From Streptomyces sp. NBC_00536 (lineage in GTDB: Bacteria; Actinomycetota; Actinomycetes; Streptomycetales; Streptomycetaceae), in NCBI RefSeq assembly GCF_036346295.1, contig NZ_CP107819.1:4216001-4280000 (forward strand): a stretch of 64,000 nt of DNA, in the 5' to 3' direction. The position numbers were made by a program, and so were the translations under genes. Below, one piece after another: positions 2,500 through 60,102 of the stretch. The notes under the pieces are model-generated. The model was not told where the DNA came from. It saw only the letters and a list, made by a program, of their open reading frames with translations, and did not search any database. The first letter of the stretch is position 1. Every line of letters begins with the position of its first letter.

Positions 2500-3927
2500 T
2501 CAGCGCTTACGGCGACGGCCGCGTCCACCGCGGCTCGGGCCCGGGGCCGCCGCGGCGGCCGGGGACCCCGGCCGGTCGGCGGAAACGACCAGCGCGGCCA
2601 GCGCCGTGGTCACCGGGACCGAGGCGACGAGACCGATCGAGCCCACGAGGGTCCGTACGATCTCCTCCGCCACCAGCTCGCTGTTGGCCACCGTCCCCAC
2701 ACTGCTGTTCGCGATGGAGAACAGCAGCAACAGTGGCAACGCGGCGCCCGCGTAGGCGAGTACGAGGGTGTTGACCACGGAGGCGATGTGGTCGCGCCCG
2801 ATCCGGATGCCCGCCCGGTACAGCGCGCGGGGTCCCATCGACGGGTCGGCCTGGTGGAGTTCCCAGACCGCTGACGTCTGGGTGACCGTCACGTCGTCGA
2901 GCACGCCCAGCGATCCGATGATCACGCCGGCGAGCAGCAGGCCGCTCATGTCGATGTGCGGGTAGAGCCCGTGGATCAGCCCGGTGTTGTCATCGGTGTT
3001 GCCGCTGAGGAACGCCCAGCCGATGAACGCCGAGCCCAGCAGCCCGATCAGCAGCAGGGAGACCAGGGTTCCGAGGACGGCGACCGAGGTCCTGGCGGTC
3101 AGGCCGTGGCACATGTAGAGCGCGATCAGCATGATCGCGCTGGCTCCGACGACCCCGACGACCAGCGGATTCGAGCCCTGGAGGATGGCGGGCAGGATGA
3201 AGAGCGTCAGCACGGAGAAGCTGACCACGAGGGCGATCAGCGCGAACAGCCCGCGCATCCGGCCGACCACGACCACCGCGACGGCGAAGATGCCGGCCAG
3301 CAGTGCCATCGGGAGCTTGCGGTTCACGTCGATGACGGAGTACTGCAGTTCGCGCGGCGCGGCCGGAGCGTACGCGACCACGACCTCCTGGCCGCTCCCC
3401 AACTGCCGTGGTGCGCCCGGCTGGACGATCTCGACGAACCTGCGTCCCTGATCGGGCCCGGTGGAGACCTCGACCGTGGCCTTCTTGCAGTCGCCGGCCG
3501 GAGTCCTGGCCCCGCTCCCCTGGGGGGCGTCGCCCGGGGTCGGCACCTGGGAGGCGTTGACGGACTTGCAGTCGACCTGCTCGATCGACACGACCTTGCC
3601 CTGCTGGGTCTGCCGGTCGAAGCCGACACCGGTGCGCTCGTGGGCGGGGGTGCCTCCCGGCCACAGGACGATCATGCCGACGAAGACGGCGGCGGCGAAG
3701 GGGATCAGGACCGCCGCGATCACCTTGCGCAGGTGCTTCGAGACGGGTGCTGCCGGGCCGTGGCTGTGGGAGTGCGAGTGCCCGTGGGACGGTCCGTGGG
3801 ACGGCTCATGCGACGCCCCATGGCGGGAGTGGGCATGGCCTGTGTGATCCGTGGGGTCCGTGGGCTCGATGGGGGGCTGCGGCGAGGACGTCACCGACTG
3901 ATCATCGCAAGAGATGAGGGGGCCCAC
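2500..3927 (-). CDS. YibE/F family multi-pass membrane protein
   Basis: A 475-residue polytopic membrane protein of the YibE/F family. An N-terminal cytoplasmic tail very rich in His (about residues 26-58, alternating SHGHSH) precedes the first helix (about 68-88). An extracytoplasmic domain of about 110 residues containing two Cys follows, then a block of six or seven helices. The family is uncharacterised; in firmicutes it has been discussed as a transporter, but the substrate is unknown. Start is GTG 3927; another GTG at 3894 (VTSSPQPP) is equally plausible. It is divergent from thiC, whose riboswitch begins about 50 bp away. Confidence 0.85.
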   Translation of the reverse strand: MGPLISCDDQSVTSSPQPPIEPTDPTDHTGHAHSRHGASHEPSHGPSHGHSHSHSHGPAAPVSKHLRKVIAAVLIPFAAAVFVGMIVLWPGGTPAHERTGVGFDRQTQQGKVVSIEQVDCKSVNASQVPTPGDAPQGSGARTPAGDCKKATVEVSTGPDQGRRFVEIVQPGAPRQLGSGQEVVVAYAPAAPRELQYSVIDVNRKLPMALLAGIFAVAVVVVGRMRGLFALIALVVSFSVLTLFILPAILQGSNPLVVGVVGASAIMLIALYMCHGLTARTSVAVLGTLVSLLLIGLLGSAFIGWAFLSGNTDDNTGLIHGLYPHIDMSGLLLAGVIIGSLGVLDDVTVTQTSAVWELHQADPSMGPRALYRAGIRIGRDHIASVVNTLVLAYAGAALPLLLLFSIANSSVGTVANSELVAEEIVRTLVGSIGLVASVPVTTALAALVVSADRPGSPAAAAAPGPSRGGRGRRRKR

Positions 3928-3975
3928 TGTTCAGCACGCCAGGGATGACGCTAGCGTGGGGGCACCTTTGCACAA

Positions 3976-5886
<1,911 letters not shown>

Positions 5887-5901
5887 CACCGGCGCCGCGG
5901 T

Positions 5902-5935
5902 GTCGTTCCCGGGGGCCGTCCCCCTCGGGAACGAC
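5902..5935 (+). terminator. Hairpin terminator after thiC
   Basis: GTCGTTCCCG (5902-5911) pairs perfectly with CGGGAACGAC (5926-5935), and the inner GGGG and CCCC also pair around a short loop. No U-tract follows, which is common for functional hairpins in high-GC actinomycetes. Confidence 0.75.
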
Positions 5936-5971
5936 GCCGGACGACGCCCCGGACCGGGGGCGGTCCGCGGT

Positions 5972-5985
5972 GTTTCACGTGAAAC
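5972..5985. promoter_or_regulatory. parS site 1 (ParB binding)
   Basis: Perfect 14-bp palindrome GTTTCACGTGAAAC, the Streptomyces parS consensus. It lies between the thiC terminator and the stop codon of the next, minus-strand gene, so this copy is intergenic. Confidence 0.95.
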
Positions 5986-5986
5986 A

Positions 5987-6784
5987 TCATTCCGGCTCGT
6001 GCTCCGGACCGCCGAAGTCGGGGCTGGTGAAGTCCGGCGGCGAATAGCCGGGGCGGGGGCTCTGCGCGCCTCCCGGGCTGGTGAAATCGGGCGGGGTGTA
6101 GCCGAGTTGCGGGATGCGCCGGGGCTGGCGGCGCGGTACCGGAGACCCGGACCCGGCGCTGGGGTCGGCCAGCGCGTCCCGCAGGAACGGCATGATGCCC
6201 CGCTCCAGCAGCGCGTGCCGCCAGGCCTCCCGGGCGCGCGAGACTTCGTCGGGGACGGCCTCGGCCACATCCACCGTCAGCTCGGTCGAGCTGTTGCGGA
6301 CGGCGGTGACCAGCAGGCCGATCGCCGCGAACAGGATCGCCGCCGCGGTGAGACCGCCGAAGAGCCAGCCCGCCCTCAGCATGGTCTCCGCGAAGGCCGG
6401 TTCCGGCTCGATCATCTTCAGGATGTAGCCCACCAGCAGGAAGATGACCATCGCGGTGCCGGCCAGGACCGGTGCGAGGACCGCCACGACGGCGCTCACT
6501 CCCGCGCCGCTGCCGCCCGCATCGTCGTCCGGCGCCGTCGTCGGGGTGGCCGCCGACTCGTCGCGCAGCTCACCGCGGATCTTCACGTAGTGGTCGTATT
6601 CGGCCGCCGCGGCGGCCGTCAGCAGCGCACTGGCATCGAGGGCCATGGTGCGCAACTGTTCGGCGTTCAGACGTTCGCCCAGGGTCGCGAGTTCGGGCCG
6701 TTCGTGTGCGGTGCGCAGCGCCTCGTCGAGGAGCCGATCGAACTCCGGTCGGTCTTCGGTCAGCAGGTGCGGAGCGCTGGTCAT
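5987..6784 (-). CDS. Membrane protein with two central helices and a Pro/Asp-rich repeat tail
   Basis: A 265-residue protein. It has an N-terminal soluble, probably helical part (residues 1-95), two hydrophobic segments (about residues 104-128 and 138-163), and a C-terminal cytoplasmic part. The tail carries the near-repeat GYTPPDFTSP, GYSPPDFTSP, DFGGP. I do not recognise a named family. The start at 6784 (MTSAPHLL) is chosen because GGGGGATGCAC precedes it; an upstream in-frame extension lacks such a site. The tail repeats resemble low-complexity interaction tails of actinomycete membrane proteins, but no function can be assigned. Confidence 0.75.
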   Translation of the reverse strand: MTSAPHLLTEDRPEFDRLLDEALRTAHERPELATLGERLNAEQLRTMALDASALLTAAAAAEYDHYVKIRGELRDESAATPTTAPDDDAGGSGAGVSAVVAVLAPVLAGTAMVIFLLVGYILKMIEPEPAFAETMLRAGWLFGGLTAAAILFAAIGLLVTAVRNSSTELTVDVAEAVPDEVSRAREAWRHALLERGIMPFLRDALADPSAGSGSPVPRRQPRRIPQLGYTPPDFTSPGGAQSPRPGYSPPDFTSPDFGGPEHEPE

Positions 6785-6937
6785 GTGCATCCCCCGATGC
6801 TCCGTGAAGGCCGGTCGGCCCGCGTGGACCGGGCGCCGGCACAAACGGAGGAGAGCCTGCTACGGATAGTGCGATGGTAGAACGCCCACACCACGCGGTG
6901 ACAGGGGCTTTCCGGAAATACCCCGCTCCAGGAACAC

Positions 6938-8230
6938 TCAGTCGTTCAACGGGAGTTGTACGACCAGCAGTTTCCCGGCCATCGTGACCCCGCCGTCCAT
7001 GGCGATGGCGAGGCCGTCGGCGTAGACGTGGGGGCCGTCGATGGACTCCGGGCCGTGGGTGTGCTCGCCGTCCTCGGTGCCCACTTCGCCCAGCAGGTAC
7101 GGGATGGGACTGTGCCCGTGCACCACGCGCCCGCCCCCGTAGGTCCCGAGCAGCTCGCGCACGGCCTGCGGCCCGGTCTCCTGGTCGCGGAAGGCGAAGC
7201 GCTTGGTGAACTTGCGGAACAGGTCCCAGGTCTCGTCCGCGTCGTGCTGGTTGAGGAGTTCGTGGACCTTGTCGTTGACGTCCTCGATGGAGTCGCCGTA
7301 GTCCAGGTAGGCCGTGGTGTCGGAGTGCAGCAGCAGGTGGCCGTCCTCCAGGGCGGCCGCGTCCAGCCGCGACATCCACTGCAGGTGTACGTCCTCCAGC
7401 CGCTCCATGTCGGTGCGCTGGCCGCCGTTGAGCAGCCAGGCGGCCTGGAAGGTGGCGGTGCCCGCGCCGGACACGACGGGGGTGTCTCCGAACCGCTTGG
7501 CGCCGATGAGGAGCAGTTCGTGGTTGCCCATGAGGGCTTTGCAGTAGCCGCCCGCGGCCGCGGCCTCGGCGGAGAGCCGCATGACGAGGTCGATCACGCC
7601 GATGCCGTCGGGTCCGCGGTCGGTGAAGTCGCCGAGGAACCAGAGCCGGGCGTTCCCGGCAGACCACCGGCCGTCGGCGTCGATGAGGTCCTGGACGCGG
7701 AGTTCGGTGATCAGCTCGTCGAGGTAGCCGTGCACATCGCCGACGACGTAGAGCGGCCCGGGTCCGTCGGCGGGAGCGTCCTGGTGGACGTACTGGACCT
7801 GGACGGTGTCGCCCGGTCCGCCGCGGCTGATGACGGGCAGGTCGCGCTGGGTGGGCGTGTAGTCCTCGGAGTCCGCGCCCGGGTCGGAGTGGTCGTGGTG
7901 CGCGTCGTGTTCGGAGTGCTGGTGCGGCGCGGTGCCGAGGGGCGCGCCGGGGTCCGGCGCGGGTTCCGGGCCGGGGGCGTGCACGGGAGCGGGGGTGGGC
8001 GCGTAGGCGGGCCGCGGCGGAGGCACGGGTGCGCCGTCGTCGTAGTACGCCGGGTACGCGCCGTAGACGGGGGCCTCGCCGGGCATCGCGGCCGAGGCCG
8101 TGTCCGTGCCGTACGCGGCGGGCGGGGTGGTCGGCACCCGGAAGTCCCGCAGCGTGTCCGTCCGCATCGCGGGTCCCTGACCGGCCCCCTGAGTCATCGA
8201 CCCCTCCACCACCGTCGCGCTGCCGTACAT
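6938..8230 (-). CDS. Metallophosphoesterase (serine/threonine phosphatase-like) with Pro-rich N-terminus
   Basis: About 430 residues. The first 135 are a Pro/Ala/Asp/His-rich, probably unstructured segment. A calcineurin-like phosphatase domain follows with all the metal motifs: VVGDVHGY (Asp, His), LGDFTDRGPDG (Asp, Asp, Arg), MGNHELLL (Asn, His) and VVHGHSPIPY (His, His). This arrangement is that of PPP-type Ser/Thr or bis-nucleoside tetraphosphatases. Both 8230 (after AGGAGG, 8-nt spacing) and 8197 (MTQGAGQG, after GGAGGGG) have excellent ribosome binding sites; the longer form is given. The substrate is unknown. Confidence 0.87.
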   Translation of the reverse strand: MYGSATVVEGSMTQGAGQGPAMRTDTLRDFRVPTTPPAAYGTDTASAAMPGEAPVYGAYPAYYDDGAPVPPPRPAYAPTPAPVHAPGPEPAPDPGAPLGTAPHQHSEHDAHHDHSDPGADSEDYTPTQRDLPVISRGGPGDTVQVQYVHQDAPADGPGPLYVVGDVHGYLDELITELRVQDLIDADGRWSAGNARLWFLGDFTDRGPDGIGVIDLVMRLSAEAAAAGGYCKALMGNHELLLIGAKRFGDTPVVSGAGTATFQAAWLLNGGQRTDMERLEDVHLQWMSRLDAAALEDGHLLLHSDTTAYLDYGDSIEDVNDKVHELLNQHDADETWDLFRKFTKRFAFRDQETGPQAVRELLGTYGGGRVVHGHSPIPYLLGEVGTEDGEHTHGPESIDGPHVYADGLAIAMDGGVTMAGKLLVVQLPLND

Positions 8231-8405
8231 CTGCGGACCCTCCTGACCTCCAGGATCGGAGGGTCCGTGATGTCGTGCGCCCATCATAGGAATGCGGCTC
8301 GCGCTCTGTGACGCACCAGGGGTGGTGAATCCTGGCCGGAGCCGGTCGTTCCTACCGTTTTCTTCCGATATGCGTGTTGCGGGATGGTGCGGGAATCCCC
8401 GGAGG

Positions 8406-53472: not shown

Positions 53473-53543
53473 GATTCGTTGGCGAGGGGTCGTAGGCGGG
53501 ATAGTGCCTACGGCCCCTCCCAATGTCCGCTTATGCTTCTGAC

Positions 53544-54449
53544 GTGTTCGATTCGCGGCACATACGGACGTTTCACGAGGTGGTCGCCTCCGGGTCGTAC
53601 TCGGCGGCCGCCCGCGTCCTGGGCTATACCCAGCCCGCGATCACCCAGCAGATGAAGGCCCTGGAACGGGCCGTCGGCACGCCCTTGTTCACCCGGGTCG
53701 GCCGCCGCATGCAGCTCACCGAGGCGGGAAACTCCCTGGTCCGGCACGCCGAATCCATCCTCGGCTGTCTCTCCGCGGCCGAGGCACAGATGAAGGCCTA
53801 CACCCGGCTGCGCGCCGGACGGGTGAGGCTGTGCGGGTTCCCCAGCGTCAATGTCACCCTCGTTCCGGAAGCGTTGAGCGGGCTCGCCAAGGACCACCCC
53901 GGCGTACAGGTGGAACTGCTGGAGGGGGAACCCCCGGACTCGCTGCGCAGGCTGGAGCGAGGCGAGTGCGACATCACGCTGGCCTTCACCTATCCCGGGC
54001 TGCACGAGGCGGTCCCGGACGACGTGGCCGAGGTCAGGCTGCTGGAGGACCAGCTCACGGTGCTGCTGCCGACGGGCCATCCGTTGGCCCGGCGCCGGGC
54101 CGTGCACCTGGCGGACCTGGCGGAGGAGCGCTGGATCGCGGGCTGCCCGCGCTGCCGGGCCAACCTGCTGCACGAATGCGCCGAGCTGGGCTTCGTCCCC
54201 GACATCAGGTTCTCCACCGATGACAACCTGGTCGTGCAGAGCCTGGTGGCCCAGGGGCTCGGAGTGGCCATGATGCCCGCGCTGGTGCTGCCGTCGCTCT
54301 CCCTGAGCAAGGTGTGCGGGCGGCCCCTCGAACCGGTGGCCCGCCGTCACATCGCCGCCTATGTCTACCGGGACCACCTGCGGATACCGGCGACGGTGGC
54401 GGTTCTGGACGAGCTGAAGCGGGTGGCGGCCAACCGTGTCGGCTGCTGA
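53544..54449 (+). CDS. LysR-family transcriptional regulator of the sulfur unit
   Basis: A 301-residue LysR regulator: helix-turn-helix at the N-terminus (FDSRHIRTFHEVVASGSYSA, QPAITQQMKALERAVGTPLF) and a two-lobe effector domain. The GTG at 53544 gives the start FDSRHIRTF common in this group; an ATG at 53523 would add seven residues. TATGCT at 53532-53537 lies exactly 6 bp before that GTG, so a leaderless mRNA is likely. It stands upstream of cysteine dioxygenase and YeiH genes and probably controls them in response to sulfite or cysteine. Confidence 0.9.
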   Translation: MFDSRHIRTFHEVVASGSYSAAARVLGYTQPAITQQMKALERAVGTPLFTRVGRRMQLTEAGNSLVRHAESILGCLSAAEAQMKAYTRLRAGRVRLCGFPSVNVTLVPEALSGLAKDHPGVQVELLEGEPPDSLRRLERGECDITLAFTYPGLHEAVPDDVAEVRLLEDQLTVLLPTGHPLARRRAVHLADLAEERWIAGCPRCRANLLHECAELGFVPDIRFSTDDNLVVQSLVAQGLGVAMMPALVLPSLSLSKVCGRPLEPVARRHIAAYVYRDHLRIPATVAVLDELKRVAANRVGC

Positions 54450-54551
54450 CCCGGCCGGAGGGCACGTCACCCTCAATCCATAAGCGGGATTTGGGATTTC
54501 GGGTCGAAACTGTCGTTGGACGTGATGGATCGACTGGCGGACGCTGCCGGT

Positions 54552-55106
54552 ATGACCACCACCACCCCGGCCCGTACCACCGCGAGGATGGCCGCCCTCG
54601 TCGCTGAGATCCGTACGGTCGTGGACCGGGGCCTCGCACCCGACCTCACCGCCTATCTCGTCGGGGAGCGCGTCGCACCCCAGCTGGGTACGCCCGACCT
54701 GCTCACCGACGAGCAGCGCGAGGGCCACCCGGACCGGTACCGCCAGCACATCCTGCACGCGGAGCCGGACGGCAGCTTCTCGGTGGTGGCGCTGGTGTGG
54801 CTGCCCGGCCAGGAGACGGCCATCCACGACCACGTCTCGTGGTGCGTGGCCGGGGTGCACGAGGGCGCGGAGAGCGAACTGCGCTACCGGCTGGCCCCGG
54901 CGACGGGCAGCTCGGGAGCCCGGCTGGTGGCCACCGAGGAGATCGTCAACGGCCCCGGAGACGTCTGCGGGTTCGCACCGCCCGGTGACATCCACAAGGT
55001 GCGCAACTCCTGTCGCACGAAGGCGATATCCCTGCACGTCTACGGCGCCGACGTGGCCCGTCTCGGGAGCAGCGTCCGGCGGGTCTACACGCTCCCCACC
55101 GACTGA
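54552..55106 (+). CDS. Cysteine dioxygenase family protein
   Basis: A 184-residue cupin-type thiol dioxygenase. The 3-His iron site is visible: IHDHVSWCVAGV (two His) and PPGDIHKVRN (third His). Cys after the HxH motif and Tyr in SLHVYG sit where the Cys-Tyr cross-link of mammalian enzyme is found. It would oxidise cysteine, or a related thiol, to the sulfinate, which yields sulfite. Start ATG 54552 (MTTTTPAR) fits the domain; starts at 54516 or 54525 are possible. Its stop overlaps the ATG of the YeiH exporter by one base. Confidence 0.9.
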   Translation: MTTTTPARTTARMAALVAEIRTVVDRGLAPDLTAYLVGERVAPQLGTPDLLTDEQREGHPDRYRQHILHAEPDGSFSVVALVWLPGQETAIHDHVSWCVAGVHEGAESELRYRLAPATGSSGARLVATEEIVNGPGDVCGFAPPGDIHKVRNSCRTKAISLHVYGADVARLGSSVRRVYTLPTD

Positions 55107-56158
55107 TGGCGCTGCTGCACCGGTCCGTTCCGCGCTCCGGCGGGGTCCGGCCCGTTTCACGTGAAACATTCACCCCCTGGCCCGGATTGGCCACCGCCGT
55201 GCTCGGCGCCGCGATCGCGTGGGGTGTGCACCAGGCGCTGCCCGAGGTGCCCTGGCTCACCGCTTCGGTGGTGCTGGGCATCGCCGCCGCGCACCTGCCC
55301 CGGATACGGACCTTCGTGCGCGGCGCCGCCCGGCCGGGCCTGTCCCTCGCCGGGAAGCGGCTGATGCGGATCGGGATCGTCCTGCTGGGCCTCGGTCTCG
55401 GCCTGGACGACGTGATGGGGCTGGGCTGGGCCACGGTCGCCATGGTGGTCGCCGTGGTCGCCGCGACCTTCCTGGGCACGCTCTGGCTGGGCCGGCGGCT
55501 CGGCCTGCGCGGGGACCAGCCGCTGCTGATCGCGACCGGGTACTCGATCTGCGGGGCCTCGGCGATCGGCGCGGTCAGCGAGGTCTCCGGCAGCGACGAG
55601 GAGGACGTGGCCGCCTCGGTGGCGCTGGTCACCCTGTGCGGGACCCTCGCGATCGCGGTCCTCCCGCTGCTCCAGGGGCCGTTGGGGCTCACCGACCCGG
55701 AGTTCGGGCGGTGGGTCGGGGCCAGCGTGCACGATGTGGGCCAGGTCGTGGCCACCGCCCAGACCGCCGGGCCGGATGCCCTCGGGGAGGCCGTGCTCGT
55801 CAAGCTGATGCGGGTGGCCCTGCTGGCCCCGCTGGTGGCCGCCGTGGCCTTCTCGGTACGGGCCCGGCGGCGCGGGGTACGGACCGCCTCGGGGCGCCGG
55901 CCCACCCCGGTACCGCTGTTCGTCGCCGGATTCCTGGCGGCGGCCGCACTGCGCGCCACCGGGCTCGTACCCGATGCCGCGCTGGAGTGGGCGCACGCGG
56001 CACAGGAGGCCCTGCTGGCCGCCGCCCTCTTCGGCCTGGGGAGCGCGGTGCACCTGCCGACACTGGCCCGGACCGGCGGCCGGGCCGCGGTGCTGGGGCT
56101 GAGCGCCTGGGCCGTGGTGGCGGGGGTTTCGTACGCGGGCGTGCTGCTCACCATGTAG
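55106..56158 (+). CDS. YeiH-family putative sulfate/sulfite exporter
   Basis: A 350-residue membrane protein with about ten helices. It has the YeiH landmarks GLGLGLDD, ATGYSICGASAIGAVS and GASVHDVGQVVATA. YeiH-type proteins are proposed to export sulfite or similar anions. Directly coupled to the cysteine dioxygenase gene (TGATG overlap), which makes removal of sulfite from cysteine breakdown a sensible role. A parS site encodes residues 17-21 (VSRET), before the first helix. Confidence 0.9.
   Translation: MALLHRSVPRSGGVRPVSRETFTPWPGLATAVLGAAIAWGVHQALPEVPWLTASVVLGIAAAHLPRIRTFVRGAARPGLSLAGKRLMRIGIVLLGLGLGLDDVMGLGWATVAMVVAVVAATFLGTLWLGRRLGLRGDQPLLIATGYSICGASAIGAVSEVSGSDEEDVAASVALVTLCGTLAIAVLPLLQGPLGLTDPEFGRWVGASVHDVGQVVATAQTAGPDALGEAVLVKLMRVALLAPLVAAVAFSVRARRRGVRTASGRRPTPVPLFVAGFLAAAALRATGLVPDAALEWAHAAQEALLAAALFGLGSAVHLPTLARTGGRAAVLGLSAWAVVAGVSYAGVLLTM
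55154..55167. promoter_or_regulatory. parS site 5, in the YeiH gene
   Basis: Perfect GTTTCACGTGAAAC within the N-terminal coding part of the YeiH exporter, read in frame as VSRE(T). Confidence 0.95.
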
Positions 56159-56254
56159 CCCCGCCACCACGGCGGCAGCACCCACCACCACTTCCTGATC
56201 ACCCAGGGCCAGAGCCCCCGCCCGCCCCACCCGCCCGGTACTCTGTACCCGCCA

Positions 56255-56344
56255 GGTGGGTTGCCCGAGCGGCCTAAGGGAACGGTCTTGAAAACCGTCG
56301 TGGCAGCGATGTCACCGTGGGTTCAAATCCCACACCCACCGCCA
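56255..56344 (+). tRNA. tRNA-Ser (anticodon TGA), with encoded CCA
   Basis: The acceptor stem GGTGGGT (56255-56261) pairs with ACCCACC (56334-56340), and CCA is encoded at 56342-56344. The anticodon stem ACGGT/ACCGT encloses CTTGAAA with TGA at 56289-56291. The long variable arm and T-arm with GGGTTCAAATCCC are those of a class II serine tRNA. Confidence 0.97.
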
Positions 56345-56347
56345 GTG

Positions 56348-56384
56348 AACGGCCCCTGACCGGGAAGATCGGTCAGGGGCCGTT
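56348..56384 (+). terminator. Hairpin terminator behind tRNA-Ser
   Basis: AACGGCCCCTGACCG (56348-56362) pairs perfectly with CGGTCAGGGGCCGTT (56370-56384), and CGTGTTCGTG follows. Confidence 0.9.
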
Positions 56385-56713
56385 CGTGTTCGTGCGGGGC
56401 ATCCCCAGGGATCGCACGGCTGGACGGATCAGTCCAGGGCCGGTTCCGTCCAGCAGAAAGCCCTTACACCTGCTGTGAGCTGCGGCGATGCTGGTGATCG
56501 CCGGTAGGTGACACCTCCCGGCAGGTCACACCGGGCGGAGCGTCACCGCGGGACGCGAGACCGGATCGGCCGCTTGAACCAGCTCTCAAAGAGGGCAGCC
56601 GTCGCCTGGCCCGGCGTGCCCACAGCTTCCTCGCGCACCGCCGCCGTCCTCACCCCGTCTGTCTGCCCCGTGTCGACCTGTCCGTCGTCGCAGCCTCGCC
56701 CTGGAGACTCCGC
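56385..56713 (+). other. Long leader region before the CHAP gene
   Basis: No gene is visible in the 329 bp between the tRNA terminator and the CHAP hydrolase start. The sequence contains several short inverted repeats, such as GGTGATCGCCGG and GGTAGGTGACACCTCC near 56500. Streptomyces genes for such hydrolases often have c-di-AMP (ydaO) riboswitch leaders, but I cannot match that consensus here. Confidence 0.4.
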
Positions 56714-58174
56714 ATGTCCGTGAAGCCCGTCCGCCGTGCCCTGAACACCTCGATCGCCCTGGCCTCCGTCGCCCCTGTGCTCCTCCTTGCCGCTTCGGCC
56801 GCCTCGGCCAGCGGCTCCGGGATCGTCGACACCGCCCGCGCCAACGTCGGTGACGGGGCCTGTTCCACCAACACTGCCGGCGGCACCGGCTTCTACTCGA
56901 GCTGCACCGGCAACTTCGGTACCGCGGAGGCCTGGTGTGCCGACTTCGCCAAGTGGGTGTGGTCCCACAACGGTGTCAACGTCTCCGGCCTCACTCCGGC
57001 CGCCGGCAGCTTCGGAACCTACAACGGCGGTCTCGGCAGCACCCCGCACGTCGGCGACGCGGTCGTCTTCAACTACAACGGGGCGGGCTACGCCGATCAC
57101 GTCGCGATCGTCGCTTCGGTCGGCAACGGCACGATCACCACGATCGGCGGCAACGAAGGTGGTGTGAGCGGCAACTACTCGGCCACTTCGCGGGTGAAGG
57201 AGTCCTCCCCGTTCAACTCGGCGGTCGGAAGCGCCGCCCGTGGCCAGACCATCAGCGGTTACGTGTCCCCGATCGGCGGCAGCGAGCCCACTCCTCCGGC
57301 GGAAACCGCGGCCGTGAACGTGCAGCTCGACATCGCGGGTTCCGGCGGTTCCCTGCTCAGCCAGTTCGGCAACTACGAGCAGGGCCGGTTCAACCCGAAC
57401 TGGACGGACGTCGGTGGCGCGGCCCTGACCAAGGTCACCAGCACCACGGTCGGGGACACCGTCCACTTCTACGGCATCTCCGACGGCCGGGTCTACGGCC
57501 GGGACCACTTCTCCGCCTCCAACACCTGGACTCCGTGGGCCGAGATCCCCGGTGGCGCGACCGGGGTCAAGGACATCGCCGCGAGCTCCAACGGCAAGAA
57601 CGTGATCCTGTCGGTCATCGGCGGGGACGGCGTCCTGTACACGCAGTACGGCAACTACGAGCAGGGCCGGTTCGACCAGAGCTGGATCAAGCGCAATGGC
57701 GTGGGTCTGACGAGCATCACCTCGGTCACGGGCAACAGCAACACGATCCGGATCTATGCGGTCGGCAGTGGTGGCCGGGTGTACGGCGAGGACTTCACGC
57801 TGTCGACCAACAGCGTCGGCGAGTGGGGCGAGATCCCGGGCGGTGTGCAGGGGGTCAAGGACATCGCCGCCAGCGTGAACGGCACCGACGTCATCCTGTC
57901 CATCGCAGGGGCGGACGGCGTCCTGTACACGCAGTACGGAAACTACGACAAGGGCCACTTCGACCAGAGCTGGATCAAGCGCAACGGCGCAGGCCTGACC
58001 AATGTCACCTCGGTCACGGGCAACAGCAACACGATCCGGATCTACGCGGTCGGCAGTGGTGGCCGGGTGTACGGCGAGGACTTCACGCTGTCGACCAACA
58101 GCGTCAGCGAGTGGGGCGAGATCCCCGGTGGCGCGGCCGGAGCCAAGGACATCACCGCGTCCATGTCGCACTGA
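56714..58174 (+). CDS. Secreted CHAP-type cell-wall hydrolase with six-blade propeller domain
   Basis: A 486-residue exported protein. Signal peptide about residues 1-33 (ends SAASAS). The CHAP/NlpC-like domain (about 35-190) has its catalytic Cys in [12 protein letters not shown] and His in [10 protein letters not shown], as in peptidoglycan amidases or endopeptidases. A short Pro/Glu linker leads to six blades of about 48 residues in three pairs, each pair carrying a [15 protein letters not shown] segment and a GRVYG segment. The propeller probably binds carbohydrate or the wall. Start ATG 56714 behind TGGAGACTCCGC. Its blade DNA is nearly repeated in the next gene. Confidence 0.9.
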
Positions 58175-59465
58175 CCCACGTCCCGCGCCTCCAGCCCATG
58201 GCACACCTGCCACCCCCGCGCCCGCCGCACCTGACCGAAGGATTCCCATGCTCCGCACCGCTCGCGCGAAGTACGCTCCGGCCCTCGCGCTCACCTCGCT
58301 GATCGCGGTCACCGCATCGATCACCGGGGTGGGACCCGCATCCGCCGCCTCTGTGAGTACGTGGGACAGGGTCGCCCAGTGTGAGAGCGGAGGCAACTGG
58401 AGCATCAACACGGGCAACGGCTACTACGGCGGCCTCCAGTTCAGCTCGGGTACGTGGGCGGCCTTCGGCGGCACTGCGTACGCGTCGCAGGCCCATCTCG
58501 CCACGAAGCAGCAGCAGATACTCATCGGCGAGAAGGTGCTCGCGGTTCAGGGCGAGGGAGCCTGGCCGAGCTGTGGACCGAGTGCGGGACTGGGGTCCGA
58601 CCACGCCGATCCGTATCCGGCGACTCCGCCGACTCCCGCCACGCGCAATGTGCAGCTGGACATCGTGGGTGGCGACGGGGGGATGTACAGCCAGTTCGGC
58701 AACTACCAGCAGGGCCGCTTCAACGGCTCCTGGGCGACGGTGGGCGGCACGTCTCTGACGAAGGTCACCAGCGTGAACGTCGGGGATGACCTGGTGCACT
58801 TCTACGGGGTCTCGGGCGGCCGGGTCTACGGGCGGGACCACGTCCCCTCGGAGAACCGGTGGACCAGCTGGGCCGAGATTCCCGGTGGTGCGACGGGGGT
58901 CAAGGACGTCGCGGCGAGTGTGAGCGGGAACAACGTCGTGCTGTCGATGGCGGGCGGGGATGGTGTGCTGTACACGCAGTACGGGAATTACGACCAGGGT
59001 CACTTCGACGCGGCGTGGACGAAGCGCAATGGTGTCGGCCTGACGAATGTCACCTCGGTGACGGGCAACAGCAACACGATCCGGATCTACGCGGTCGGCA
59101 GTGGTGGCCGGGTGTACGGCGAGGACTTCACGTTGTCGACCAACAGCACCGGTGCATGGGCTGAGATTCCCGGTGGTGCGACGGGCGTCAAGGATGTCGC
59201 GGCGAGTGTGAGCGGGAACAACGTCGTGCTGTCGATGGCGGGCGGGGACGGCGTCCTGTACACGCAGTACGGGAATTACGACCAGGGTCACTTCGACGCG
59301 GCGTGGATCAAGCGCAACGGCGTAGGCCTGACCAATGTCACCTCGGTGACGGGCAACAGCAACACGATCCGGATCTACGCGGTCGGCAGTGGTGGCCGGG
59401 TGTACGGCGAGGACTTCACGTTGTCGACCAACAGCACCAGTGCGTGGGCCGAGATTCCCGGTGGT
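57560..59465 (+). repeat. 288-bp near-identical coding repeats in the two hydrolase genes
   Basis: The stretch beginning GGCAACAGCAACACGATCCG recurs at about 57731, 58019, 59063 and 59351. Copies inside each gene are exactly 288 bp (96 codons) apart, one pair of blades, and match at DNA level over most of their length. This points to recent tandem duplication or gene conversion. Confidence 0.9.
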
Positions 59466-59507
59466 GCGACCGGGACCCAGGACGTCACCGCTGCCACCTC
59501 CAGCTGA
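58248..59507 (+). CDS. Secreted Rpf-like muralytic enzyme with the same six-blade propeller
   Basis: A 419-residue exported protein. Signal peptide to about residue 35 (GPASAA). The Rpf/transglycosylase-like domain (residues 36-110) has the catalytic Glu in [26 protein letters not shown] and the second Cys in WPSCGPS. Then, after a Pro-rich linker, six blades follow, in three pairs; pairs 2 and 3 are nearly identical to each other and to those of the preceding CHAP protein. It is an Rpf-type resuscitation or growth hydrolase, likely working with the CHAP enzyme. ATG 58248 behind GAAGGATTCCC, 73 bp behind the CHAP stop. Confidence 0.92.
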
Positions 59508-59550
59508 CGGCGGGGCACCCGCGTCCCTTCCCGTGCGCCCCAGGTGAGCG

Positions 59551-59580
59551 GCCCCCTGCCGGGAACATCCGGCCGGGGGC
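59551..59580 (+). terminator. Hairpin terminator after the Rpf-like gene
   Basis: GCCCCCTGCCGG (59551-59562) and CCGGCCGGGGGC (59569-59580) pair with a single mismatch around GAACAT. Confidence 0.75.
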
Positions 59581-59751
59581 TCGCGGGGTTCCAGGCTCCC
59601 CTTCATGGGGGTTCCGCAAGTGGGGATGGGCCGACCGGGTGGTGTTTGTCGGAAGATCGGCGCGGGTGTCGGGTGCGCTGCGGTTGCGGTCACATCATGA
59701 CGAATGTATTCAGATCCGCCCGTCGGAACATCCCGGAATGAGGGGTTCGTC

Positions 59752-60102
59752 ATGGCCAGCAGCAACACCTTCAAGTCGATCTGGACCAGTGTCCTCGCCG
59801 CACTCGTGGCGCTCTTCGCGGCCCTCGGCCTCGGTGGCAGCGCGGCCGCTCCGGCCGCCTCTTCCGTCGCCGCCCCCGCCGCCCCCGCCGTCCCGGCCGG
59901 TTCGGTGGCGCGGACGATGGCCGCCCAGGCCCGGCGGAGTTGGAGGGCGATGATGCGCGGCGGATCGCTGCCGCCGACCATCGCCCAGCGGATCCGCGCC
60001 GAGGCCCACGGTTCGACCCCCTCCGTCCGCCGGCGCTCCACGACCGCCGCGGCCCACGCCCAGTCGGACCGGTCCCGGGACGCGCTGGAGCTCGTCGCCT
60101 GA
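59752..60102 (+). CDS. Small exported or membrane protein, possibly DUF6344-like
   Basis: A 116-residue protein. Residues 1-30 form a signal or anchor (MASSNTFKSIWTSVLAALVA). An Ala/Pro-rich segment follows, then a basic region and the phrase SLPPTIAQRIRAEAHGSTPS, which also occurs in small streptomycete proteins of a family I recall as DUF6344. No function is known. ATG 59752 behind ATGAGGGGTTCGTC. Confidence 0.6.
   Translation: MASSNTFKSIWTSVLAALVALFAALGLGGSAAAPAASSVAAPAAPAVPAGSVARTMAAQARRSWRAMMRGGSLPPTIAQRIRAEAHGSTPSVRRRSTTAAAHAQSDRSRDALELVA

Follow-up and report, generated by a model that had tools for sequence, protein, structure and literature searches.

Adjacent wall-hydrolase genes with matched tails in Streptomyces suggest teams of wall-cutting enzymes aimed at one shared target

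CHAP and NlpC/P60 domains cleave peptide or amide bonds of peptidoglycan, and the endopeptidases built on them usually bind the wall through SH3b or LysM tails; Rpf domains cleave its glycan strands, and the Rpf enzymes of Streptomyces and mycobacteria (RpfA-E) end in LysM, G5 or short tails. Paired hydrolases may cooperate, for example RpfB with RipA, and in the pneumococcal choline-binding hydrolases LytA/B/C one module that binds a teichoic-acid component is placed on several wall hydrolases. We focus here on a gene pair of Streptomyces sp. NBC_00536, contained in a stretch of 64,000 nucleotides (nt) that we call the window (positions 4,216,001 to 4,280,000 of contig NZ_CP107819.1, or G000:C1:4216001-4280000) and that is part of a 9.15-Mb genome. 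The pair encodes a CHAP-type and an Rpf-type enzyme ending in one and the same module, predicted to be a propeller and called the tail below; related loci carry other tails, again matched between neighbours. Such matching suggests that the wall-cutters of a locus act as a team against one common target.

A second system of relevance is the umbrella toxin of Streptomyces, whose layout combines UmbA, a dead trypsin domain with a C-terminal lectin, and a giant protein with ALF repeats (PMC11062931, PMC13274773). The lectins bind the walls of competing Streptomyces; the two UmbA proteins with a known ligand, UmbA4 and that of S. griseus, are both six-bladed, and UmbA4 binds a teichuronic-acid-like polymer on the wall teichoic acid of the target species (PMC13274773). 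In the window each part belongs to a known family, and the arrangement is what would be new. First of all, the Rpf-type protein shares the PF06737 domain and a secreted-type N terminus with known Rpf enzymes but ends in a propeller, whereas five other Rpf genes of the same genome end in LysM or G5. Second, the CHAP protein has the CHAP domain of known endopeptidases, with its conserved Cys and His, and the usual SH3b or LysM tail is replaced by a probable lectin common to the neighbouring glycan cleaver. Third, the LytA/B/C module is one constant family; in the groups of neighbouring genes described here, which we call cassettes, the module family is swapped between loci and matched between adjacent genes. 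Finally, UmbA proteins have homologous C-terminal propeller tails, with six-bladed members and a high diversity of tail families between strains, 41 C-terminal families having been published; UmbA, on the other hand, contains a dead trypsin domain and forms part of a particle together with UmbB and UmbC, whereas here the tail sits on intact hydrolases. The cassettes thus resemble choline-binding hydrolases in principle and umbrella toxins in their addresses, and fall under neither definition. In the open-licence literature, searched by titles and the starts of abstracts, we found no description of a system made up of Rpf or CHAP enzymes that carry propeller tails, and none of Rpf with FG-GAP in Streptomyces.

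The two genes lie head to tail, CHAP first, with the following features (aa, amino acids; AF2, AlphaFold2; E, expectation value).

56714..58174, + strand: CHAP-type wall hydrolase gene, 486 aa, signal-peptide-like start; PF05257 at E 1.4e-10, over cut-off
56924..57154, + strand: CHAP catalytic domain, residues 71-147, by Pfam match
57317..58171, + strand: CHAP tail, predicted six-blade propeller, residues 202-486, by AF2 model and structural alignment
57317-57598, 57599-57886 and 57887-58171, + strand: the three units of the CHAP tail, by unit boundaries
58175..58247, + strand: intergenic gap of 73 nt, by coordinates
58248..59507, + strand: Rpf-type transglycosylase gene, 419 aa, signal-peptide-like start; PF06737 at E 4.7e-33, over cut-off
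58347..58574, + strand: Rpf catalytic domain, residues 34-109, by Pfam match, with a QCESGGNW motif
58647..59504, + strand: Rpf tail, same module, residues 134-419, by identity to the CHAP tail
58647-58931, 58932-59219 and 59220-59504, + strand: the three units of the Rpf tail, by unit boundaries

The CHAP domain scores 42 bits against a Pfam cut-off of 26, and all 23 rows of an alignment keep Cys75 and His129; PF06737 scores 114 bits against a cut-off of 27 in the Rpf protein, which matches the solved RpfB structure in phmmer (E 7.4e-27) and in which we take the Glu of QCESGGNW to be catalytic. The signal-peptide-like N termini of both proteins were judged by eye. These enzyme families support a pair of complementary predicted chemistry, one peptide cleaver and one glycan cleaver, as the initial annotation of the window had proposed. 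The genome's nearest relatives in a protein search carry the names Streptomyces and Kitasatospora.

That annotation had also placed one module of six blades in three pairs on both enzymes, and this description holds. The tails are 76-78% identical (78% over 285 residues), and each consists of three units of two blades, with 94-96 residues to a unit; the identity between units 2 and 3 is 92% (protein) and 93% (DNA) in the Rpf protein, and 81% and 88% in the CHAP protein. In the AF2 model of the CHAP tail, made from a 50-row alignment and with a predicted local distance difference test score (pLDDT) mostly above 90, six sheets can be counted from the strand list and the ring is closed by the C-terminal strand, so that the CHAP tail is, as modelled, a closed six-blade propeller. 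VIA-align 2 superposes 271 tail residues on a six-bladed Kelch domain at 2.5 Å, and alignments with six-bladed chains cover the whole tail. Comparison with known propeller lectins, which had been suggested for this domain, gave Foldseek matches to the Photorhabdus PHL/PLL lectins among the top rows (E from 7e-13, with large root-mean-square deviation) and to the fungal fucose lectins FleA/AOL lower down (E about 1e-9), at only 11-17% sequence identity in the displayed rows. PLL lectins have seven blades (PMC6943638), and the six sheets of the model speak against this class for the tail. Membership of the CV39L family (NCBIfam) was dropped because the match (E 5.7e-10; 38.8 and 35 bits) misses the curated cut-off of 350 by far. 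Pfam has no family over cut-off in the tail, and a PDB sequence search with the CHAP protein gave nothing useful. Judged by its relatives, the tail is probably a sugar-binding domain.

The nearest understood of these relatives are lectins of umbrella toxins. A search with the CHAP protein, in which the best 7998 candidates were scored, returned 114 proteins, and a second search was made with the Rpf protein. The tail was found on CHAP, Rpf-type and GH27 proteins, on the NlpC-like protein P0019 and on many proteins with the database name trypsin-like serine protease (P0004-P0030). The name is misleading, because in P0004, P0006 and P0059 another residue stands in place of the catalytic His, and Thr or Ala in that of the Ser; the proteins look catalytically inactive and, from their sequences, P0004-P0030 resemble UmbA. 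Across the 121 UmbA-like open reading frame (ORF) matches in the genus, which include genes fetched twice (L103 and L133, for example) and thus represent fewer distinct genes, the position of His57 is never His in the 92 with the motif located, and that of Ser195 is Thr in 63, Ala in 47, Ser in 6 and Gly in 1 and was not found in 4. In each of the 12 other genomes examined, a dead-trypsin gene has an ALF-repeat ORF of 1002-1384 aa within about 5 kb. Among the UmbA-like tails collected, the window tails match that of one gene, in genome G167, with identities of 42% and 43%. The tail is, on this evidence of homology, related by descent to the C-terminal domains of UmbA-like proteins, the lectin subunits of Streptomyces umbrella toxins; the pair's N termini are CHAP and Rpf in place of the dead trypsin domain. 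Furthermore, of 204 cassette tails (duplicates included), 92 match a UmbA-like tail with E<1e-20 and an aligned length of 150 aa or more. When 15 NlpC-like proteins, mostly with FG-GAP tails, are combined into a profile, it matches in its tail chain C of 8w20 (E 4e-26), in the C-terminal half, followed by fungal GlcNAc-type propeller lectins. The entry 8w20 is the deposit of the Umb1 particle (PMC11062931), and its chain C would be UmbA.

Adjacent genes with matched tails recur in other genomes, where the initial annotation had suggested looking for them. A scan of the GTDB species collection with the CHAP alignment found 79 loci, and in 22 of them (many of the 79 are cut by contig ends) an Rpf gene lies at most 1500 nt from the CHAP gene; together with the window and four more loci of the genus, these give 27 non-redundant CHAP/Rpf pairs, picked by catalytic domains alone. 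CHAP comes first in 24, Rpf comes first in L027 and G168, and the genes diverge in L033. Short copies of longer loci (L014-L018, L020, L023) were left out, as were L210, L212, L214, L216 and L217, whose contigs have the same lengths as those of L049, L060, L057, L077 and L033. Tails match at E<1e-10 in 27/27 pairs, against 127 of 702 non-cognate combinations, and 20000 shuffles of the pairs gave a mean of 5.7 matches and a maximum of 15. Two cases stand outside the 27: a second pair in L211 has matching tails (81-82%), its Rpf being unlike the other CHAP, and a second CHAP in L209, cut by the locus end, has a tail unlike that of the nearby Rpf, which matches its other neighbour instead.

The same holds for a second family of peptide cleavers. 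In P0019 a window-type tail (64-65% identical) follows a domain marked by the motif DC(S/G)G(Y/F)V, and this type of domain is predicted to fold as NlpC/P60 (AF2 model, pLDDT 82), with Spr/MepS and CwlO as best Foldseek matches (E 3e-5 to 1e-3), C47 and H100 invariant over 28 rows and a weak profile match to Spr (E 0.017); Pfam gives it no family at E<=0.001 in P0019 and P0126, and in L250 the domain is likewise unnamed. Within the family, 105 of 345 genomes encode it, that of the window included. Among 40 NlpC-like regions, 21 have an adjacent Rpf gene on the same strand and 19 have none, and tails match in all 21 pairs. L285 has an NlpC gene on the opposite strand; its match is with another gene and not with the Rpf. 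Pooling both sets gives matched tails in 48/48 pairs, with 367 matches among 2256 non-cognate combinations and, over 20000 shuffles, a mean of 8.65 and a maximum of 21 of 48. The tail family varies between loci, yet is common to neighbours, and unrelated families on the two members of a pair, the outcome that the initial annotation had named as speaking against a shared module, occur in 0/48. Among the 48 are close relatives, namely L057 and L087 (tails 93%) and L063 and L073 (90%), so that some pairs depend on each other and the shuffle test errs on the optimistic side; the match in L032 rests on 58 residues, with a run of N breaking its Rpf tail. The record of L087, titled Streptosporangium nondiastaticum, and Streptomyces klenkii (L057) have CHAP tails with 93% identity, reflecting either a mislabelled record or a recent transfer.

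The extent of the similarity in DNA points to how tails may stay matched. In both genes of 48/48 pairs the matching DNA never begins more than 15 nt upstream of the catalytic-domain end, and in 26 pairs its other end lies at most 15 nt from each stop codon. Matches of 400 nt or more with an identity of 90% or higher are present in the tail DNA of 19/48 pairs; in 14 of these 19 the match begins at most 60 nt from the domain end and extends to the stop (within 15 nt, both genes). The neighbour's tail outscores every same-enzyme tail elsewhere in 26/48. A comparison of L253 with L255 gives 94% identity for the NlpC domains and 82% for their tails, with 95-96% between the tails within each locus; likewise, the tails of Kitasatospora P0003 and P0036, taken as one genome, are 83% alike and those of the window pair 76%, with 59% between the two CHAP tails. 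In L040 the CHAP domain groups with L027 and L032 and the Rpf domain with L073, the swapped groupings being rejected by approximately unbiased (AU) tests at p 4e-9 and 2e-5 for groups named after viewing the tree; its two tails are 99% identical despite these conflicting domain histories. The Rpf catalytic tree, with 82 columns only, is poorly resolved and was used for L040 alone, and grouping L063 with L073 was not rejected (p 0.061). A CHAP-domain clade of the window, L030, L040, L027 and L032 (support 98/93) carries five differently labelled tails, of which those of the window, L027 and L032 are still detectably similar. Replacement of a tail followed by copying into the neighbour would be the best account of these patterns, and gene conversion or segmental duplication the probable route.

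Matching could, however, be mechanical: neighbouring stretches of similar DNA convert or duplicate easily, and the enzymes would have no functional need for the same address. The 98-100% identity of tail DNA in some pairs is what any recent duplication or conversion would give. We nevertheless regard this as very improbable, for old pairs whose tails are only 39-70% identical still match, the matches hold in three gene orders and with two unrelated families of peptide cleaver, and unrelated tail families never occur within any of the 48 pairs.

The genome itself contains further cassettes. Its eight PF06737 genes comprise four with LysM (one also with M23), one with G5, two with FG-GAP tails and the window gene, and both FG-GAP Rpf genes adjoin an NlpC-like gene with a matching tail. 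The additional loci are as follows.

L250 (G000:C1:4664000-4674000), genes 3209-4483, 4487-5953 and 5957-8260, + strand: second cassette; Rpf, NlpC-like and a 768-aa protein, with FG-GAP tails
L251 (G000:C2:113000-123000), genes 3694-5145 and 4998-6767, - strand: third cassette; Rpf and NlpC-like, with FG-GAP tails
L252 (G000:C1:1062000-1071000), genes 4070-5086 and 5128-6396, - strand: NlpC-like and muramidase-like, with LGFP-repeat tails

In L250, near 4.667 Mb on C1, the Rpf and NlpC-like tails are 56% identical, and the third gene, with no named family at its N terminus, has a tail 90% identical to that of the Rpf; in L251, near 118 kb on the 268-kb contig C2, tails are 97% identical in protein and 94% in DNA; and in L252, near 1.066 Mb on C1, the LGFP tails are 81% identical. 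The genome thus has four loci with four different matched tails.

For the window we propose, with confidence that reaches an even balance and goes no further, a secreted, address-matched pair of wall hydrolases sharing one UmbA-type lectin and aimed at the wall polymer of other bacteria. Both enzymes would be secreted, the CHAP enzyme cutting peptide or amide bonds and the Rpf enzyme cutting glycan strands. The shared six-bladed lectin would dock both on one surface glycopolymer, most likely that of other bacteria and probably of competing actinomycetes, and because one lectin docks both, the two cuts would fall within a single stretch of wall. In relatives an unrelated address would take over, with the neighbours keeping a common one, the new tail being copied from neighbour to neighbour as a DNA module running from linker to stop codon.

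Rpf enzymes are known for germination and resuscitation, and the pair might instead serve to open the wall of its producer when spores germinate, hyphae branch or spores are released. Tails would then vary since the teichuronic or teichoic polymers of each lineage vary, both enzymes recognizing the same self polymer, and hypervariable self polymers would likewise select tails that are matched and variable. We consider such self-directed remodelling unlikely, though a serious competitor. Four loci with four different tails lie in a genome that already holds five LysM or G5 Rpf genes, the distribution is patchy, with this CHAP type in 9/295 genomes of the genus (own included, E<=1e-20), and those relatives of the tail that have been characterised bind to non-self walls (PMC13274773); for these three reasons a non-self target is favoured. 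The initial annotation had spoken of a possibly undescribed wall-remodelling pair targeted by its propeller. The pair is real, but it is one of a set with locus-specific matched tails, not an isolated one; the idea of wall targeting gains from the kinship to surface-glycan-binding UmbA lectins, whereas remodelling of the own wall is not favoured, because the nearest understood relatives bind competitors' walls and three further loci carry other tails.

The cassettes also extend to other enzymes. A neighbour with a matching tail, of any enzyme type, is present in 65/109 loci, and of 28 partners scanned with Pfam 18 have an enzyme family: GDSL esterases in nine (L033, L040, L056, L253, L272, L274, L281, L286, L287), Rv2525c-like glycoside hydrolases in four (L024, L071, L082 and, just under cut-off, L277), GH19 in two (L041, L062), and SpoIID (L034), SLT_3 (L036) and Exo_endo_phos (L265) in one each. 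The other ten have no Pfam enzyme family (L025, L026, L031, L046, L054, L080, L213, L250, L252, L285); two of these, L026 (E 1e-6) and L252 (E 5e-5), match solved muramidases by sequence, and L048 gives a weak muramidase match (E 0.017). In loci without Rpf the partner is often another glycan cleaver. The GDSL esterase, a frequent third member, might, as a guess, clear O-acetyl groups from the glycan or the polymer. The window pair may thus represent a wider class, a proposal on which we are evenly divided, of polymorphic, address-matched lytic cassettes in Streptomycetaceae and related actinomycetes that would form an enzyme-only counterpart of umbrella toxins. Such a cassette would combine a peptide cleaver (CHAP or NlpC/P60), a glycan cleaver (Rpf, SpoIID, GH19, muramidase-like or Rv2525c-like) and often a GDSL esterase, all with the same exchangeable lectin; gene conversion over the length of the module would preserve tail identity among enzyme genes that are unrelated elsewhere, and the lectins, from families overlapping those of umbrella toxins, would serve to attack competitors' walls.

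Several observations weigh against the proposal of lectin-addressed attack and its copying mechanism. First, no cassette tail is more than 52% identical to any UmbA-like tail, so that the link is one between families and not between recent copies, and recent exchange between UmbA and cassette tails is rejected; furthermore, the L049-type and L030 tails have no UmbA-like relative at E<=1e-6 in the sample. Second, the window's own genome has no dead-trypsin gene at E<=0.001, whereas the same query matches 59/199 genomes of the genus at 1e-15. Of its eight ALF matches, the seven listed fall in ORFs of 744 and 365 aa that have no dead-trypsin neighbour and do not reach the 1002-1384 aa of the ORFs beside UmbA-like genes; judged by the dead-trypsin and ALF searches, umbrella-toxin genes in the own genome are improbable. 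Third, 44/109 loci have no tail-matched neighbour; contig ends and cut-offs contribute, and L030 and L032, counted there only through the length rule and the low-complexity filter, both match in the pair test. The loci are, moreover, biased to deposited genomes and include near copies. Fourth, 22/48 pairs are matched but diverged and give no concerted signal, and in the window the DNA block is 81% identical over 845 nt and ends 16 nt before the stops, being older than the near-identical blocks. Finally, the GH27 alpha-galactosidases P0048, P0049 and P0119 carry the same propeller tail, which is therefore not confined to wall enzymes. These proteins, and third partners such as the GDSL esterases and the Exo_endo_phos protein, favour a different explanation, in which a broad glycan-binding tail serves general retention or feeding by keeping secreted enzymes on hyphae or dead biomass, and matching reflects a common anchor, not a specific target. 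We find this improbable, since tail families differ strongly between loci, even within one genome, yet match inside each locus, and the partners with a nameable enzyme family are mostly wall-active.

If correct, the proposal of address-matched hydrolases would reveal a second lectin-addressed arm of Streptomyces antagonism, which uses plain wall enzymes and lectins related to those of umbrella toxins, and would provide a rule for finding such teams from sequence alone, namely neighbours with matched tails. It would also offer a natural case of DNA copying acting on one domain common to different enzymes, as well as natural pairs for testing the benefit of two complementary hydrolases on one address.

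As to the surroundings of the pair, a search of 56150-59800 for promoters and terminators gave a single terminator-like site, which is within chance, and no sigma-70-like promoter. Upstream, 53523-56158 encodes a LysR regulator, a cysteine-dioxygenase-like protein and a PF03601 membrane protein, possibly a sulfur-related group, and downstream, at 59704-60102, lies a small gene with DUF6344 at its C terminus.

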